Made by a program: the position numbers and the translations under genes. A stretch of 27,938 nt of DNA from a virus, in the IMG/VR virus record IMGVR_UViG_3300029787_000248, positions 1 through 27,938 of that record. One strand, written 5' to 3'. Of the stretch, positions 3-20,089 are shown one piece after another. Under the pieces are notes generated by a model. That model ran no database searches and was not told the DNA's origin. It saw nothing but the letters and a program-made list of their open reading frames with translations. Within the stretch, counting starts at the first letter, position 1. The number at the start of each line of letters is the position of its first letter.

Positions 3-16
3 CGCAGGGTCGCAGG
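3..16 (+). repeat. CGCAGGGTCGCAGG repeat, copy 1
   Basis: A 14-nt sequence made of a doubled CGCAGG unit separated by GT. It recurs at 750-763, as 13 nt at 772-784, and at 881-894. This copy ends 3 nt before a promoter-like -35 hexamer (TTGACT at 20-25), as the 750 copy ends 2 nt before TTGACA. It may be an activator or sigma-contact site. It sits at the window edge, so more copies could lie to the left. Confidence 0.75.
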
Positions 17-19
17 GGT

Positions 20-47
20 TTGACTACACTAGTTTTTGTGATACACT
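20..47 (+). promoter_or_regulatory. Predicted sigma70-type promoter for the GP88 gene
   Basis: The -35 is TTGACT (20-25) and the -10 is TACACT (42-47), with a 16-nt spacer. The predicted start near base 54 would put a small stem-loop (55-76) at the very 5' end of the transcript. The CGCAGGGTCGCAGG repeat lies just upstream. The call rests on consensus matching by eye. Confidence 0.5.
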
Positions 48-54
48 GTACCTA

Positions 55-76
55 GTTTTATTTGGAGGACTAAAAC
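55..76 (+). promoter_or_regulatory. Leader stem-loop presenting the Shine-Dalgarno sequence
   Basis: GTTTTA (55-60) and TAAAAC (71-76) are perfect inverted repeats enclosing a 10-nt loop, TTTGGAGGAC, which contains the GGAGG ribosome-binding site of the gene starting at 78. Bases 61-73 are perfectly complementary to 808-820, and that second segment largely forms the loop of another hairpin. This makes the leader a candidate target for loop-loop (kissing) antisense control. Confidence 0.5.
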
Positions 77-77
77 A

Positions 78-680
78 ATGAAATCTAAAATACTTTCACA
101 CCCGTCAAAGATGCCATGTCCGGCAATATCATTGGACGCTCGAGCATGCAAAACGGGATCGAAGCTCGCAGAGATCGAAGGCACAGTTTGCCATGATTGC
201 TATGCGCTCAAGGGTTTCTATCGTATGCCCAATACCAGAAACGCCATGCAAAGACGCATGGATTTTATGACCAGTTTGGAATTCGTACCAAAGATGGTCG
301 AAGAACTACGCCAGTTTTGCACCAATGGATACTTTCGTTGGTTCGATTCTGGCGACGTGCAAAGCGTACAGATGGCCACCAATATCTTAGAGGTATGCCG
401 ACAGACTCCAGAGATTAAACATTGGATACCGTCCAAAGAGCCCGCCATTTGGAAAGATGCCCTCGCGCAAACGGAACAGCCGAACAATGCTATTGTTCGC
501 ATGAGCGCGACCAAAATTGATTCGGCTGCGTCCAACAAATGGGCGCATACGTCCACCGTTCACAAGGATCGAGACCCGTTCGGCCAAGCTTGTCCTGCCA
601 GTTTACAAGGCAACAAATGTCTCGATTGCAGAAGCTGTTGGAATACGAACGTGGCAAATGTTTCCTACAGCTTTCACTAA
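78..680 (+). CDS. GP88-family phage protein, Cys-rich
   Basis: A 200-aa protein that I recognise by pattern as the phage GP88 (mycobacteriophage gene 88) family. It has the N-terminal core CHDCYALKGFYR with Cys38 and Cys41, then an aromatic FRWFDSGDVQS stretch and a later HWIPSKEP segment. Further cysteines at 14 and 24, and a C-terminal cluster C172, C181, C184 and C187, could bind a metal or iron-sulfur centre; that is inference. The biochemical role of the family is not known to me. The start is fixed by a strong GGAGG 9 nt upstream. It has its own promoter (20-47), and the region downstream ends in a strong terminator (830-853), so it is probably a separate transcription unit from the divergent region that follows. 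Confidence 0.8.
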   Translation: MKSKILSHPSKMPCPAISLDARACKTGSKLAEIEGTVCHDCYALKGFYRMPNTRNAMQRRMDFMTSLEFVPKMVEELRQFCTNGYFRWFDSGDVQSVQMATNILEVCRQTPEIKHWIPSKEPAIWKDALAQTEQPNNAIVRMSATKIDSAASNKWAHTSTVHKDRDPFGQACPASLQGNKCLDCRSCWNTNVANVSYSFH

Positions 681-765
681 TCCAACCACAGGGGCTCCGG
701 CCCCCACCCTGGGGTTCTGCCGCCAAGATCATATACATATATACAAGGGCGCAGGGTCGCAGGAC
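681..765 (+). other. Non-coding spacer after the GP88 gene, with GC hairpin and repeat copy
   Basis: No convincing gene is seen. GGGGC (691-695), loop TCCG and GCCCC (700-704) form a small perfect hairpin, but no T-run follows, so it is not a clear terminator. An AT-rich stretch (729-746) of alternating TA/CA follows. Copy 2 of the 14-nt repeat is at 750-763, next to the -35 of the second promoter. Confidence 0.5.
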
Positions 766-784
766 TTGACACGCAGGGTCGCAG
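750..784 (+). repeat. CGCAGGGTCGCAGG repeat, copies 2 and 3
   Basis: Copy 2 (750-763) is a perfect 14-mer. Copy 3 (772-784) matches 13 nt. The two flank a perfect TTGACA -35 hexamer (766-771), so copy 2 sits upstream of the promoter and copy 3 fills its spacer. A protein bound to copy 2 could activate, and one bound to copy 3 could repress. Confidence 0.75.
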
Positions 785-794
785 AGCGCAGAAT
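766..794 (+). promoter_or_regulatory. Predicted promoter for a short non-coding transcript
   Basis: The -35 TTGACA (766-771) matches consensus perfectly. A 17-nt spacer is followed by CAGAAT (789-794), a 4/6 match to the -10. The expected start near 801 coincides with the first base of the stem-loop at 801-823. No gene follows on this strand before the terminator at 830-853, so the predicted product is an RNA of about 50-55 nt. Confidence 0.4.
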
Positions 795-800
795 CACTAC

Positions 801-853
801 CAGTTTCTTAGTCCTCCAAACTGAGAACCAACCCCTCTTCGGAGGGGTTTTTT
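801..853 (+). ncRNA. Candidate small antisense RNA (anti-Shine-Dalgarno loop plus terminator)
   Basis: CAGTTT (801-806) pairs with AAACTG (818-823) around an 11-nt loop, CTTAGTCCTCC, and a UUCG-capped intrinsic terminator (830-853) follows 6 nt later. Bases 808-820 are an exact 13-nt reverse complement of 61-73, the ribosome-binding region of the GP88 gene. Ten bases (811-820) also match TTTGGAGGAC at 2147-2156, the ribosome-binding site of the first early-operon gene. Two arrangements are possible: a separate RNA from the promoter at 766-794, or the 3' UTR of the GP88 mRNA folding back on its own 5' end. No expression evidence is available. Confidence 0.45.
830..853 (+). terminator. Rho-independent terminator with UUCG tetraloop
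   Basis: AACCCCTC (830-837), loop TTCG (838-841) and GAGGGGTT (842-849) make a perfect 8-bp stem closed by the extra-stable C(UUCG)G loop. A T-run at 848-853 follows. It ends rightward transcripts (GP88 mRNA or the candidate small RNA). The TAA stop of the leftward nuclease gene begins inside the T-run. Confidence 0.85.
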
Positions 854-2129: not shown

Positions 2130-2161
2130 GGCTGACTCATTAATCATTTGGAGGACAAGCA

Positions 2162-2994: not shown

Positions 2995-3227
2995 CAGTCA
3001 TAATCGACGTTCAGCAAGTAGGAACCTGCAATGCAAGTTTAAATCAGTGCATCGATGAATTTAATACGAAGCGAGCGGGGCAGGGGTTTCTGTCCTGCTC
3101 TTCTGAGGATTCTCAGATGATTGATCAGATTGTCGGACAATGCACCGATTTCATCAACGAACACCAACCGCACTTTGATTGGTGTTCCATGAAAGTTGTG
3201 GTTAAGGAACAGGAGGACGAACTATGA
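2991..3227 (+). CDS. Hypothetical early protein, 78 aa
   Basis: Unknown small protein with five cysteines (CNASLNQC, SCSSED, QCTDF, WCSMK). The ATG at 2991 overlaps the previous stop by 4 nt (ATGA) and has AGGAG upstream. The open frame extends upstream to an ATG at 2928, but that would overlap the previous gene by 67 nt without a good ribosome-binding site, so the shorter form is chosen. Confidence 0.65.
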   Translation: MTVIIDVQQVGTCNASLNQCIDEFNTKRAGQGFLSCSSEDSQMIDQIVGQCTDFINEHQPHFDWCSMKVVVKEQEDEL

Positions 3228-3466: not shown

Positions 3467-3579
3467 ATTTTTTTGATACAGCCACGTACTACCTGATCAT
3501 GTCCGTGGTCGGGTGGTCACTGGTCATCCTACAGATCACATGTGTGGTTTGGTTTTTAAAAAGTTGGAGGAAGAAATGA
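3463..3579 (+). CDS. 38-aa single-pass membrane peptide
   Basis: A tiny gene fitted between its neighbours by ATGA overlaps at both ends. The peptide has a short N-terminus, one hydrophobic segment of about 22 residues (roughly residues 9-31, containing LIMSVVGWSLVILQ) and a basic tail ending KSWRKK, which predicts an inner-membrane protein with its C-terminus in the cytoplasm. Function is unknown. Its place in the early operon argues against a holin; superinfection exclusion or membrane effects on the host are guesses. The exact fit of both overlaps is the main support that it is a gene. Confidence 0.6.
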   Translation: MNFFDTATYYLIMSVVGWSLVILQITCVVWFLKSWRKK

Positions 3580-4787
3580 GATACGCGACAGTCTGTTCGG
3601 GTGTTGAAGCCTGTTCCGTGGCGTGGGAGCCATTGGGTTGGCAACCAGTTTTCTTTTCTGAGATTGAGGACTTCCCGTCGGAGGTTCTCAGCACACATTA
3701 TCCAAGCGTCCCCAACCATGGGGACATGACAAACTTTGAGGAGTGGGGTTATGAAAGAGGATCAATTGATGTTATTTGCGGAGGAACACCTTGTCAGTCT
3801 TTCTCCGTTGCAGGACTCAGAAGAGGACTCAGCGATAACAGAGGGAATCTTGCGCTCACTTTTTGCCGAATGGTTGATCAGTTGCGCCCCAAGTACTTCA
3901 TCTGGGAAAACGTTGCCGGTTGTCTGTCATCCAACGGAGGACGGGACTTTGGTTCCATCACAGGGGCGATGGCAGAATTCGGGTATTCATTCGGATGGCG
4001 TGTGTTTGACGCACAATACTTTGGAGTCCCCCAGAGACGACGTAGAGTCTTTCTTGTTGGATGTTCTACAGGACAACCAGAACATATCCGACAAATATTG
4101 TTTGAGCCAGAGGGCGGCAGAAGGAATCCTACGGAGAGCCAAGAGACGGGGCAAGACATTACCCGAAACACTAGAGACGGCACTGAGGTCTTTGATTTCC
4201 AACGAATTGGTCAGTACGGAACCAAGGGCGTAGGATCGACTTGCATGGCGCGGGACTACAAGGACTCAAAGGACTTGGTCGTGTACGAATACCACGGTCA
4301 CGATTCCAGAGTCAAAGAGCTAGATCAGACGTGTCAGACCGTCACATCCAGATGGGGGACGGGTGGCAATAATGTGCCATTGGTTTCGTTCAGTTCAAAT
4401 ATGTCTGAGCCTGACGTGCTTGAGAACGTAGCACCGACGGTCAAGGTTGGTGGCAGTGGGTGCAGTAATCCCCCTGCCATTGCGTATGGCTTGAGAACCT
4501 CCAACACCAAATCAAATGGTTGGGGCATTCAAGAAAACAGAACGCACACGCTTGATGCATCAGGAGGAACGCATACCGTTGCAACAGAAAAACTGGTGCG
4601 TCGGTTGACACCGATTGAAGTCGAACGGTTACAGGGTTTTCCAGACGACTACACAAGTATTCCGTGGCGCGGCAAGACCGCACCGGATAGCCGTCGCTAT
4701 AAGGCGATGGGTAATAGCATGGCTGTTCCGGTCATGCGTTGGTTAGGTCAGCGTATCGCTGACATTGAGGAGGGTAACAATGAGTAA
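3576..4787 (+). CDS. DNA cytosine-C5 methyltransferase
   Basis: A 403-aa enzyme that transfers a methyl group from S-adenosylmethionine to cytosine C5. Family motifs appear in order: motif I near residues 3-11 (ATVCSGVEA), motif IV GGTPCQSFSVAG with catalytic Cys73, motif VI ENV (111-113), motif VIII QRRRRVFLVG (153-162), then a target-recognition region, and motifs IX/X (RRLTPIEVERLQGFP and KAMGNSMAVPV) near the end. All catalytic motifs are intact. GGAGG 7 nt upstream fixes the ATG at 3576, not an earlier in-frame ATG at 3513. No restriction enzyme is next to it, so it is an orphan enzyme, probably protecting phage DNA or altering regulation. A nested +1-frame reading frame lies at 3751-4233. 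Confidence 0.93.
   Translation: MRYATVCSGVEACSVAWEPLGWQPVFFSEIEDFPSEVLSTHYPSVPNHGDMTNFEEWGYERGSIDVICGGTPCQSFSVAGLRRGLSDNRGNLALTFCRMVDQLRPKYFIWENVAGCLSSNGGRDFGSITGAMAEFGYSFGWRVFDAQYFGVPQRRRRVFLVGCSTGQPEHIRQILFEPEGGRRNPTESQETGQDITRNTRDGTEVFDFQRIGQYGTKGVGSTCMARDYKDSKDLVVYEYHGHDSRVKELDQTCQTVTSRWGTGGNNVPLVSFSSNMSEPDVLENVAPTVKVGGSGCSNPPAIAYGLRTSNTKSNGWGIQENRTHTLDASGGTHTVATEKLVRRLTPIEVERLQGFPDDYTSIPWRGKTAPDSRRYKAMGNSMAVPVMRWLGQRIADIEEGNNE
3751..4233 (+). CDS. Candidate nested gene in the +1 frame of the methyltransferase, 160 aa
   Basis: A complete reading frame inside the methyltransferase gene. GAGGAG (3738-3743) lies 7 nt before its ATG, an ideal spacing, though the same bases encode Glu-Glu of the methyltransferase. 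The product begins MKEDQLMLFAEE, is polar with scattered Cys, and ends in a basic helix (CLSQRAAEGILRRAKRRGK then LPETLETAL). From memory, phage proteins with tails like YFLS-KAC-GILRRA-KRGK-LP are often annotated beside or over such methyltransferases, but I cannot verify this. It may be a true overlapping gene or only a frame shadow preserved by constraint on the methyltransferase. Confidence 0.4.
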   Translation: MKEDQLMLFAEEHLVSLSPLQDSEEDSAITEGILRSLFAEWLISCAPSTSSGKTLPVVCHPTEDGTLVPSQGRWQNSGIHSDGVCLTHNTLESPRDDVESFLLDVLQDNQNISDKYCLSQRAAEGILRRAKRRGKTLPETLETALRSLISNELVSTEPRA

Positions 4788-9471: not shown

Positions 9472-10998
9472 ATGTCGGATGTTGAACAGTTTTTATCCCT
9501 GTTCCAAGGATCGAACACGGGATACGGCAAAACAATAATAGGAAGCAAAAGACGCAACGGAAAACAAGAAGCTAGATGTTACACAGTTCGAGAATGTCTT
9601 ACTGTTGAAGTTATGGCACAGCATTTAGAAGGTGAGACCAGTGTTGGTGCAATCCCAATAGATGAAAGAAACAACTGTAGGTTTGGCGCGATAGACATTG
9701 ATGACTATCCAATTGACCACAGTGAACTGGTCAAGAAGTTAAACAAGTTTCAGTTGCCGTTGGCCGTGTGCCGATCTAAATCGGGCGGGGCTCACCTATA
9801 TATGTTCTTTGTTGAATGGTTTCCCGCCTCTGAGGTACGCGAGTATCTAGCAGAGATTGCTGCATTGATAGGACATGCAGGGTGCGAGGTCTTTCCTAAA
9901 CAGGACAAGATTCTTTCGGATCGTGGAGATCTTGGTAACTTCATTAACCTGCCATACTTTGACCAAGAGAATACGCTCAGATACATGGTCGATAAGAAGG
10001 GCAACGCGGTTGGGTTTAAAGAGTTTCTACGTTGGACTTCCAAAAACAAAGTAAAACTTACTGATCTGGACAATCTTCTTGCTAGACCAGAAGAATCCCC
10101 TTATGGAGATGCTACTCCATGCCTGGAGTGCATGTTAAACGACGGCATACCAAAAGGGCAGCGAAACATGACCATGTTTCAAACAGGAACCTATCTTAAA
10201 CAGAAGTTTCCAGAAGGCTGGCAGAAGGAGATGGAAGCTGTTAACCAAACCACTTTTTATCCACCGTTGCCAGCTATTGAGGTTGTTCAGATACAAGAAC
10301 AACATGAAAAAAAAGATTACCAATACATTTGTAACCAAGAGCCCTTTAAATCTTACTGTAATAGGGAACTTTGTAAGACAAGAAAATACGGTATCGGCAG
10401 TGGTAAAGGAGACGAGAAGCCAAAGATCAGTGGACTGACGATTCTATTGTCAGAGCCCAGGCTATACTTTTTAGACGTTGCTGGTAAACGTCTGGAGATA
10501 ACGACAGAGCAATTACAAATTCAAATGCAGTTCCAGCGTCAATGCATGGAGCAACTTAATTATATGCCACCCGCACAGAAGGCCAACGAATGGCAATCAC
10601 TGGTCAACGATCTTTTACAAAATGCCACACAGATAGAGGTGCCTGAAGAACTAACACTTGGAGGGCAGTTTAAAGAACTGATTAAACAGTTCTGCACGTC
10701 CAGGATTCGAGCAATGTCTCCCGAAGAGATGGAGATGGGTAGACCCTGGACAGACAAGAATAAAACCTATTTCAAACTCAAAGGTATACAGGACTATTTA
10801 ATAAACCAAGGGTTCTCAAAATTAAACCGGCCACAGATACAGCAACGACTCAAGGATTTGGGTGGGGACTTTCACGGAGTGTATCGATACAAAGACGAGT
10901 CCGATAAATGGAAGGGTGTCCGAGTTTGGTGGGTACCTGAGTTTGAATACGAAGAAATAAGTTTACCAGAAGGAGATGAATATGAAGCCCCGTTCTGA
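9472..10998 (+). CDS. Archaeo-eukaryotic-type primase (AEP/PrimPol, TOTE-primase-like)
   Basis: A 508-aa primase predicted to start DNA synthesis for the polymerase downstream. The catalytic AEP core is visible: FGAIDIDD with Asp75 and Asp77, then SKSGGAHLYMF with Ser104 and His108, and GNFINLPYF (155-163). A PriCT-like region follows with CLEC (217-220) and GIPKGQRN. A Cys cluster (287, 296, 301) may bind zinc or an iron-sulfur cluster. The C-terminal ~90 residues look like a winged helix. The pattern resembles primases of TOTE-type elements and marine phages. The ribosome-binding site is weak (GGAA), consistent with low expression after a terminator. Its 3' end overlaps the next gene. Confidence 0.85.
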   Translation: MSDVEQFLSLFQGSNTGYGKTIIGSKRRNGKQEARCYTVRECLTVEVMAQHLEGETSVGAIPIDERNNCRFGAIDIDDYPIDHSELVKKLNKFQLPLAVCRSKSGGAHLYMFFVEWFPASEVREYLAEIAALIGHAGCEVFPKQDKILSDRGDLGNFINLPYFDQENTLRYMVDKKGNAVGFKEFLRWTSKNKVKLTDLDNLLARPEESPYGDATPCLECMLNDGIPKGQRNMTMFQTGTYLKQKFPEGWQKEMEAVNQTTFYPPLPAIEVVQIQEQHEKKDYQYICNQEPFKSYCNRELCKTRKYGIGSGKGDEKPKISGLTILLSEPRLYFLDVAGKRLEITTEQLQIQMQFQRQCMEQLNYMPPAQKANEWQSLVNDLLQNATQIEVPEELTLGGQFKELIKQFCTSRIRAMSPEEMEMGRPWTDKNKTYFKLKGIQDYLINQGFSKLNRPQIQQRLKDLGGDFHGVYRYKDESDKWKGVRVWWVPEFEYEEISLPEGDEYEAPF

Positions 10999-18900: not shown

Positions 18901-20089
18901 CTTTAGATAAACGATCTATCTGACCTCTCATTTTTTGTGCTATGGGACGAACAGTTGGGGGCAAAGCTTCTATCAATACTTTACGAGCTTCTTCTGTATT
19001 TTTTCCAACACTACTGGGGTTGAGAAAAGCTTCCAATGCATTGTTGGTTTGAACTTTAACTAAATCGGATTGACCTTTTAAGATTGGCTCTAAAGCCTTG
19101 TTAAGCTGTTTTAAAGTCCTTTCTGCCTCTTTTGCTTCGGCAGAAGAAATGCCTTTGATAACAGCCCTTTCTGCTGCAACTTCCTCTGGCAAAGAGCCCC
19201 GATAACGTAGAACAGATAGGGTGTCTGACAAAACACTATCTACAAAACCTTGTTCGTCTCTTTTAAAAACTCTTTCCTCTGCAATGCGATCCAAATAATC
19301 TTTTGTATTCTTTACGGGTGCAGATTTTTTAACTGCTCTTGCTATTGGTGATAAGTTAGGAGCAACAACATCACTAACTTTTCCAGCAACCGCTCCAGTT
19401 GCCGTCAAAGCCCCGCCAAGTATGGCAGGTGCCGTCGCCACTATTGTGCCGGTTTCTGCACCTATCTTAAATTTGTTAGTTATCCTTCGCCACGCTTCTT
19501 CTCGACCCTGCAACCCTATATCTTTTTCAGTTACAGTCGGTCCACCATCGAAAAAATCGCCAATGGTTGTAATGCCATCTGTCGCTACAATAGCGTCGGC
19601 TAAACCTGCTGCAGCTATTTGCTCTGCCGCCAAACCTGCTTTTTGAGCTTTAGTTAACTCTGCTCCTGAACGAGCAAGCTTTCCAAGTTTCGTGGTTTTA
19701 GAAAGAATGTTGGCGGCTGCAACACCAGGAACTACAAACTGGGTAAGTATTTCTGCACCTTTACCCGCAAATCCTACTGGATCGATACCCCCTGCTCTAC
19801 GCACTTCATCAGCAAAGTCTGTGACATCTGAGGCGTAATTTGTATCAATGGCTAAATCAATTGCAGAGGCAGCAAGTTCCCCAACCCCTTGAATAATGCC
19901 AATGCCACCAGAAACAATACCCTCTCCAATCTCTTGAAGAGTCCCTTCACTTTCTGTTTTAGGTTTTTGTTCTGGTTCTTCTGGTTTTGGATTAGCTTTA
20001 AGAAACTCTTTAGCCTGACGACGTGCTTCTGTTTCATCTTCTGTCTGCGCGGTAAACGTGCGCCCATCAGGTAAAGCTACGTTTATCAC
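15953..20089 (-). CDS. Large virion protein, probable internal/ejection protein, 1378 aa
   Basis: The largest gene in the window. The N-terminus (INVALPDGRTFTAQTEDETEA) resembles the opening of many phage internal virion or ejection proteins. A Gly/Ala-rich hydrophobic part spans about residues 50-230, which could insert into membranes. Residues ~825-930 contain the segment LRKLPFGNFIAFPYEIMRTG, of a kind seen in large polyvalent phage proteins. A short Leu-Gln-Glu-Leu repeat sits near 748-770, and the last ~80 residues are a Pro/Gln/Thr/Ser-rich low-complexity tail. No transglycosylase motif was noticed. Position next to the endolysin, at the end of the virion operon, fits an ejected protein of a short-tailed phage. 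This is inference. Confidence 0.75.
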   Translation of the reverse strand: MINVALPDGRTFTAQTEDETEARRQAKEFLKANPKPEEPEQKPKTESEGTLQEIGEGIVSGGIGIIQGVGELAASAIDLAIDTNYASDVTDFADEVRRAGGIDPVGFAGKGAEILTQFVVPGVAAANILSKTTKLGKLARSGAELTKAQKAGLAAEQIAAAGLADAIVATDGITTIGDFFDGGPTVTEKDIGLQGREEAWRRITNKFKIGAETGTIVATAPAILGGALTATGAVAGKVSDVVAPNLSPIARAVKKSAPVKNTKDYLDRIAEERVFKRDEQGFVDSVLSDTLSVLRYRGSLPEEVAAERAVIKGISSAEAKEAERTLKQLNKALEPILKGQSDLVKVQTNNALEAFLNPSSVGKNTEEARKVLIEALPPTVRPIAQKMRGQIDRLSKDIQSSALLKRLKEEGIQVQQGPRKGESVADVINDTVEKNLNTYLRRSYRAALDPDYKPDKETIDLALSGFKGDKDFTVELLKRSVKPGGVKEGSDLSRLGFLDDGTDLVGSKVTNEQAKVATDQFLKEYKSKFGARNKGGQAARVSMERLRTGMFENREMFKEYQRRLLGEIKDPQEAFLGTIADLSEFKAVDKFYGNVAKLAESKAGIGKFFVKRTSDADPVPDGYITLGNLENLSAIGVKDAPSDAVQWGALQGYAVPERVYADLTKQVKDDLANPAANLVRATYSSFLRAKGYSQYGKTVLSPITQIRNVTSAALFAAAQGNVGKGANVFESVGLVWDDILKKTSDEQLRELQELQELGVIGSQAELQELRALIKEGWGTEGVYDKASRTKLGRELAQRVSRSEGADFLDSAGKKIKGVGKVAEDFYQGGDNVWKIYNYKFEQNKLRNALSKMEDGGEAFARERMEKLGQDFVSVDDFLKKEAADIVKNTVPNYNLAPDAIKELRKLPFGNFIAFPYEIMRTGINTIGRGLDELASTNKEIQKIGLRRLSGATTTFGIAPVALSEFAYAVSGVTEEEMGAFKRSLAAPWEKNARLIPTGRDKNGLPTYINYSYTNPYDMLERTLTGALNKVEEGQKLGKSGDVIAFEAATESLSELLSAFTDESIITAKLLDVTIRGGRTETGALVYNPQEDSGTKIGRSFLHILDGVVPSVAPVDISGKGFEAGRFTRSFMSATGLNDLAGISEKDRQGRERQFAGELVRAFTGVTENTIDPELALKYKAYEFAKARQQSSNIFNRVARSLNITDPNELLDAYNEANDARYRATNAFHQTLEDVKTLGLSRFKIRRILKEKTNVGGIDEILRGRYEPLKISDSVEKDMRSIGNYRLLPRGEIRSLQRKDRRRGFGAEERPDPKPVEETQVQPQTETPSVVSVQPQTPLQTVASVTPQSTSTPLTASSSALTPNFRTQQLLRDLETRRG

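Follow-up and report, generated by a model that had tools for sequence, protein, structure and literature searches.

A small RNA of about 55 nt, encoded downstream of the phage gene GP88, very probably acts in trans to block translation of a block of phage genes that share one ribosome-binding site (RBS) tag. The architecture of the RNA gene, its conserved hairpin and seed, the shared tag and the co-occurrence of tag and RNA can be seen directly in the sequences compared here; from these we infer that the RNA is produced, pairs with its targets in vivo and represses them. The analysed stretch of DNA (the window) is a whole, linear IMG/VR record of 27,938 b from an uncultured phage.

The GP88 coding sequence (78–680, + strand; PF17338, E=7e-25), a predicted target of the RNA, belongs to a Pfam family without an assigned function and without a solved relative. 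A promoter scan placed TTGACT-16-TACACT with a TG at 20–47 on the + strand (TATAAT in some relatives). This promoter scores 9/12 against sigma70 and predicts a start near 52–54, which agrees with the claim of an earlier sequence-only reading that the GP88 leader lies at the 5′ end of a transcript. The same reading had paired the leader with a second element farther downstream, and the perfect 13-nt complementarity was verified: positions 61–73 (TTTGGAGGACTAA, the putative target site in the leader, + strand) and 808–820 (TTAGTCCTCCAAA) form the only complement pair with 0 mismatches in the window. Ten nucleotides are also shared, as had been noted, with the early-operon site at 2147–2156, where TTTGGAGGAC recurs. 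Among 300 dinucleotide shuffles of the window, 2 gave the GP88 leader any 13-nt complement on the + strand. The duplex predicted between this leader and the real hairpin has an energy of -12.9 kcal/mol; hairpins shuffled at the same composition averaged -4.2, but the best of them, at -16.1 kcal/mol, surpassed it, and energy by itself therefore does not decide the case. The 13-nt match in a single genome is likewise suggestive but not decisive, and we therefore compared relatives.

Searches with GP88 returned 15 close relatives (95–98%) and distant matches, and a second, diverged clade (L066/G003 and L170–L178) was found by means of an RNA pattern and a hairpin pattern. Between the two RNA-bearing clades GP88 identity is ~59%, and the other shared proteins compared are mostly 30–80% identical. 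The allele comparison thus covers 14 distinct RNA alleles from two related phage clades. Isolated phages gave no DNA match to positions 1–1200 of the window, and a search of 50,697 isolated-phage records with the small RNA gave terminator-like matches only. The RNA patterns were not found in 84,980 bacterial and archaeal species. A promoter pattern run against IMG/VR in search of relatives with a changed seed returned known members and chance matches only, and a scan with the bare 14-mer gave more than 119 matches, near the chance level. No such RNA was found around GP88 in its relatives from isolates (CRP-4, CRP-125, HTVC027P, Seuss and others). In two members of the second clade, on the strand in which the small RNA is oriented, a diverged GP88 homologue of 238 aa with the RBS TTGGAGGAAAAACCC stands in the GP88 position (L173, 9109–9825, PF17338 E=6e-23; L176, from about 2460).

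The second element has the appearance of a true small-RNA gene (~55 nt, about 801–856 by its predicted ends, + strand), with a putative promoter and terminator of its own. The promoter scan found the sigma70-like TTGACA-17-CAGAAT at 766–794 (+ strand); it scores 10/12 against sigma70, has a near-consensus TTGACA and is kept, with its TTGAC, in both clades. Its predicted start near 801 is in line with the proposal that this element, too, stands at a transcript 5′ end. The UUCG-loop terminator proposed to follow the second stem-loop was recovered by a terminator scan, in which 830–849 plus the T-run is the strongest match of the region (intrinsic terminator with U-tract, 830–856, + strand). The letters of its stem vary among alleles with the pairing retained (CCCCUC-UUCG-GAGGGG, GCCCCGCCUAGUGCGGGGC, GCCCCGGAG...CUCCGGGGC). 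A stem that is rebuilt with other letters while its pairing is kept evolves as that of a terminated RNA does. The minus strand of the RNA copy holds no conserved reading frame. Against all families described in Rfam, c4 and sar included, neither the window nor six relative loci gave a match above the gathering threshold; the best sub-threshold score was 18.4 bits against a cut-off of 43.

The surroundings of the RNA gene show further regularities. Copies of the repeat CGCAGGGTCGCAG lie at window positions 3–20, 750–767, 772–789 and 881–898, all on one strand. Those at 750–789 (+ strand) flank the -35 element and fill the spacer of the small-RNA promoter, and two copies at -57 and -35 from the hairpin occur in most contigs of both clades. 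The CGCAGGG[T/C]CGCAG repeats just before the -35 element and in the spacer hold the same place in nearly all contigs, and further copies of CGCAGGGTCGCAG are found within the cassette and before GP88. These repeats may be operators; as a speculation, a DNA-binding regulator bound to them may time the small-RNA promoter. Right after GP88 (691–704) there is also a hairpin, GGGGCTCCGGCCCC, with no U-tract, whose stem varies in relatives with pairing kept. In L004, L006, L009, L010 and L016 an extra small ORF is present between GP88 and the small RNA, and the RNA is kept.

Within the RNA, the pairing across 14 alleles defines an anti-RBS hairpin with the stem 805–811/821–827 and the loop UCCUCCAAA at 812–820 (+ strand). 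This UUCUUAG/CURAGAA stem is paired in 100% of the alignment cells, its changes are confined to A/G opposite U, and it is the minimum-energy fold in every allele tested. It takes the place of the CAGTTT/AAACTG stem (801–823) drawn from the single sequence, for which 77% of cells are paired and two of six pairs are broken in most alleles; folding prediction, too, favours 805–811 with 821–827. The loop UCCUCCAAN, complement of UUGGAGGA, is present in 14/14 alleles, and the seed AGTTTCTTAGTCCTCCAA is unchanged in the same 14 distinct alleles of both clades. According to the allele alignment and the RBS consensus, an invariant stretch of 12 nt, UUAGUCCUCCAA (808–819, + strand), is complementary to the shared RBS UUGGAGGACUAA. 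Co-variation of seed and target is not seen, because the seed never changes, and no allele among the 14 was found in which the leader is kept and the complement lost. As for the leader itself, the letters of the proposed GTTTTA/TAAAAC stem are present, and occur in two forms among relatives (AGTTTTA..TAAAAC and GGTTT..AAACC), but the predicted fold has little stability (-3.6 kcal/mol, z -1.3) and pairs the leader differently. Most other targets have no stem of this type, and the interaction does not require two kissing hairpins.

A second anti-RBS sequence, GATTAGTCCTCCGG, was observed in L150 (G003 record ~19911–19960), L173, L174, L176 and L178. It lies just 3′ of the stop codon of a cassette gene and before a terminator, and has the same 10-nt seed with other flanks. 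Possibly it is a second RNA derived from a 3′ UTR, or a product of chance.

The putative targets lie mostly outside the window, which starts at the GP88 promoter; the relatives extend further upstream, and there a block of small unrelated genes precedes GP88, with the RBSs TTTGGAGGACTAAAAATG, TTGGAGGACACAATG and TGGAGGACAAAAATG among others. The cassette proteins received no function from Pfam or PHROG. Genes of 20 contigs were grouped into 164 families, and those on the same strand from -4 to +1.5 kb were counted as near the RNA. A GGAGGA[C/T] RBS was found in 22/36 families near the RNA vs 3/128 elsewhere (Fisher 6e-15, in a test that treats gene families as independent and takes its genes from a simple home-made caller). 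When one member was taken from each of the 26 block families with GGAGG, the RBS consensus UUGGAGGACUAA complemented the RNA at 12/12 positions. The bases further upstream are near random, and conservation ends at the edge of the complementary stretch; 23 other GGAGG families are without such flanks. Given the 16S tail, a ribosome would favour AAGGAGGUG, and the flanks UU and ACUAA therefore fit the small RNA, not the ribosome. For the tagged families, duplexes with the RNA seed are predicted at about -14 to -20 kcal/mol, and those with the 16S tail at about -9. Clades 1 and 2 have different cassette families near the RNA, yet the tag is the same in both. The complement fits the consensus RBS of some 20 gene families that are unrelated to one another, and the early operon is among them.

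Inside the window the clear targets are only two or three, namely GP88, the gene at 2162 and perhaps the one at 3224. The first early-operon gene (2162–2551, + strand; 129 aa, no family) is a predicted target, judged by its sequence, through the site UUUGGAGGAC at 2147–2156 (+ strand), which reads TGGAGGAC in clade 1 and TGGAGGAT in clade 2. In clade 2 both GP88 and this early gene carry GGAGGAU, with a G.U pair, and are without CUAA. The four strongest predicted interactions in the window are those with the methyltransferase, GP88, gene 2162 and gene 3224 leaders, all on the + strand within 4.8 kb. The candidate site of the methyltransferase gene (3576–4787) is TTGGAGGA at 3564–3571 (+ strand, -14.0 kcal/mol), without the motif's AC. 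A weaker candidate is the GGAGGAC of the 3224–3466 gene at 3212–3218 (+ strand), fourth of ~30 leaders with -8.7 kcal/mol.

Across the loci compared, the tag and the RNA occur together. The 20 RNA-bearing contigs (312 kb) hold 62 TGGAGGAC sites, 60 of them on the RNA's strand. Only 2 such sites, against 228 GGAGG sites, occur in the 469 kb of 67 GP88 loci that lack the RNA (loci from the alignment search together with the earlier distant matches); both belong to the same gene in the near-identical L208 and L209. The RNA core near GP88 was absent from the loci examined outside the two clades (45–59% identity; best 80 GP88 loci). The carriers being two related clades, the co-occurrence of RNA and tag may rest on one origin. 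L208 and L209 are the nearest GP88 relatives without the RNA (58–59%); in them the repeats are preserved, the gene neighbourhood is similar, GP88 is followed by an ordinary terminator, and one TGGAGGAC site is left. They are candidates for the state before the RNA was gained or after it was lost.

In the mechanism that we propose, the loop UCCUCCAA on the 5′ hairpin would nucleate pairing with UUGGAGGA at the Shine–Dalgarno sequence. The 5′ stem arm CUUAG would then open and let the duplex extend over the downstream CUAA (CUUAG/CUAAG), and the resulting duplex of 9–13 bp would cover the RBS, so that initiation would be blocked and less protein translated. Predicted targets are GP88, the block of small genes that immediately precedes it in relatives, and the first early-operon gene, all marked by the tag UUGGAGGAC(UAA). 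More speculatively, the RNA would accumulate with the multiplication of the phage genome and shut off early accessory genes. Both GP88 and the RNA have sigma70-like promoters and could both be read early, and the RNA might then serve as a brake that grows with the number of genome copies. It also seems fairly likely that this is a system of RBS tags, in which any accessory gene with the leader UUGGAGGACUAA would come under one small RNA and a cargo block of changing content would be silenced as a unit without a protein repressor.

We consider it unlikely that the RNA works chiefly in cis, or that it is a product of the 3′ end of the GP88/cassette transcript and pairs back to upstream RBSs in an OppZ/CarZ-like feedback. 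Such an arrangement would suit the position of the RNA, downstream of its targets and on the same strand in all contigs, and the hairpin at 691–704, whose lack of a U-tract makes read-through plausible; clade 2 even has its second anti-RBS sequence in a 3′ UTR before a terminator. The RNA nevertheless has a predicted promoter of its own, conserved in both clades with a near-consensus TTGACA, and a separate transcript, past the predicted terminator, would carry the early-operon target. In systems such as OppZ and CarZ, an RNA located 3′ of a gene can pair with a binding site of its own operon, and RNAs of the OppZ type are released from the mRNA by RNase E and have no promoter of their own. Here, in contrast, there is promoter-like sequence of the RNA's own, and the putative targets are in other transcripts. 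OppZ and CarZ of Vibrio are described as autoregulatory sRNAs derived from 3′ UTRs (PMC7398697).

We find it very unlikely that the CCUCC loop titrates host Shine–Dalgarno sequences generally and so shuts down host translation. The loop UCCUCCAA does match any UUGGAGGA site, and sRNAs that bear CCUCC do exist in Alphaproteobacteria (cuckoo RNAs). However, the match to the phage sites exceeds a generic Shine–Dalgarno sequence (UU before it, ACUAA after it), which is unneeded for host shut-off. Cuckoo or CcsR RNAs are small hairpins with a CCUCC-type loop and a CCUCCUCCC motif. The RNA of the window resembles them in being a small hairpin RNA with such a loop, but it is phage-borne, has no Rfam match and does not carry the CCUCCUCCC motif, its loop being UCCUCCAAN in all 14 alleles. 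Additionally, CcsR RNAs have a DUF1127 partner in Alphaproteobacteria (PMC10253847), to which the two neighbours compared here, GP88 and a terminase-like gene, are unrelated.

It is highly improbable, in our opinion, that the shared RBS is a recombination border, or a strong site copied among cassette genes, and its antisense copy an inverted, non-regulatory relic. Cassette genes do move about between phages, and hairpins often stand before them, which would suit recombination driven by borders. Yet conservation stops where complementarity stops, and the inverted copy combines a predicted promoter and a hairpin with a predicted terminator whose changes preserve pairing, while no reading frame is conserved on its minus strand. 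Hardly any credence is due to a cis antisense RNA for GP88 alone working through kissing hairpins, which would account for the perfect 13-nt complement and for leader-stem letters kept in two forms, but not for the same or a near-same complement at some 20 other gene families, for best matches in clade 2 that are not GP88, or for the weak leader fold.

The trans-acting RNA with many targets thus keeps part of what had been proposed from the single sequence: the anti-Shine–Dalgarno loop and the predicted promoter and terminator of its own stand, and GP88 is not the sole target. The view that no phage system of this form had been described was too strong, as P22 sar and P1/P7 c4 block RBSs by pairing (PMC12197685). 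The c4 RNA is a phage small RNA that pairs around the RBS of a phage mRNA, with complements likely in loops (PMC12197685). Here, too, the complement covers the Shine–Dalgarno sequence of a phage gene, but c4 was described for one target (ant), and the seed of the RNA studied here matches some 20 gene families. The sar RNA is a small antisense RNA that pairs with the ant mRNA and hinders translation initiation (PMC12197685). The predicted RNA would likewise be a small phage antisense RNA directed at translation initiation. Unlike sar, an antisense to a single gene, it lies on the same strand as its targets, ~740 nt downstream of the GP88 site, overlaps none of them and would act in trans on many genes. 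T4 shuts off many genes with two proteins: RegA, a competitor of the ribosome on about 30 mRNAs, and RegB, which cleaves GGAG motifs within initiation regions (PMC3014915). Ours is an RNA, but in each case a single phage factor silences, or is proposed to silence, a group of early mRNAs by acting on their initiation regions.

Phage RNAs that block RBSs are thus known already; what would be new is one such RNA with many targets, doing a RegA/RegB-like job. Those previously described that we found act on one gene each, and no paper on such a multi-target system was found in the literature searched, which included few subscription journals. If the reading is true, a regulon built on one RBS and one loop would provide post-transcriptional control of modular cargo genes. 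The tag could serve to find early-shutoff gene sets in uncultured phages, and a two-plasmid version of the system could be set up in a laboratory host.

Two further features of the window were recorded. The stretch 1792–1990, which lies between the terminase-like gene and the start of the early operon, carries clustered CGTAAC/GTTACG repeats, both direct and inverted (ATCCGTAACGTTT, AAACGTTACGGAT, TCCGTAACATCCGTAA), and looks like an origin or operator region. Finally, the protein encoded at 9472–10998, in a phage replication module, contains a primase domain of archaeo-eukaryotic type as in TOTE conflict systems (PF22548, E=5e-19).
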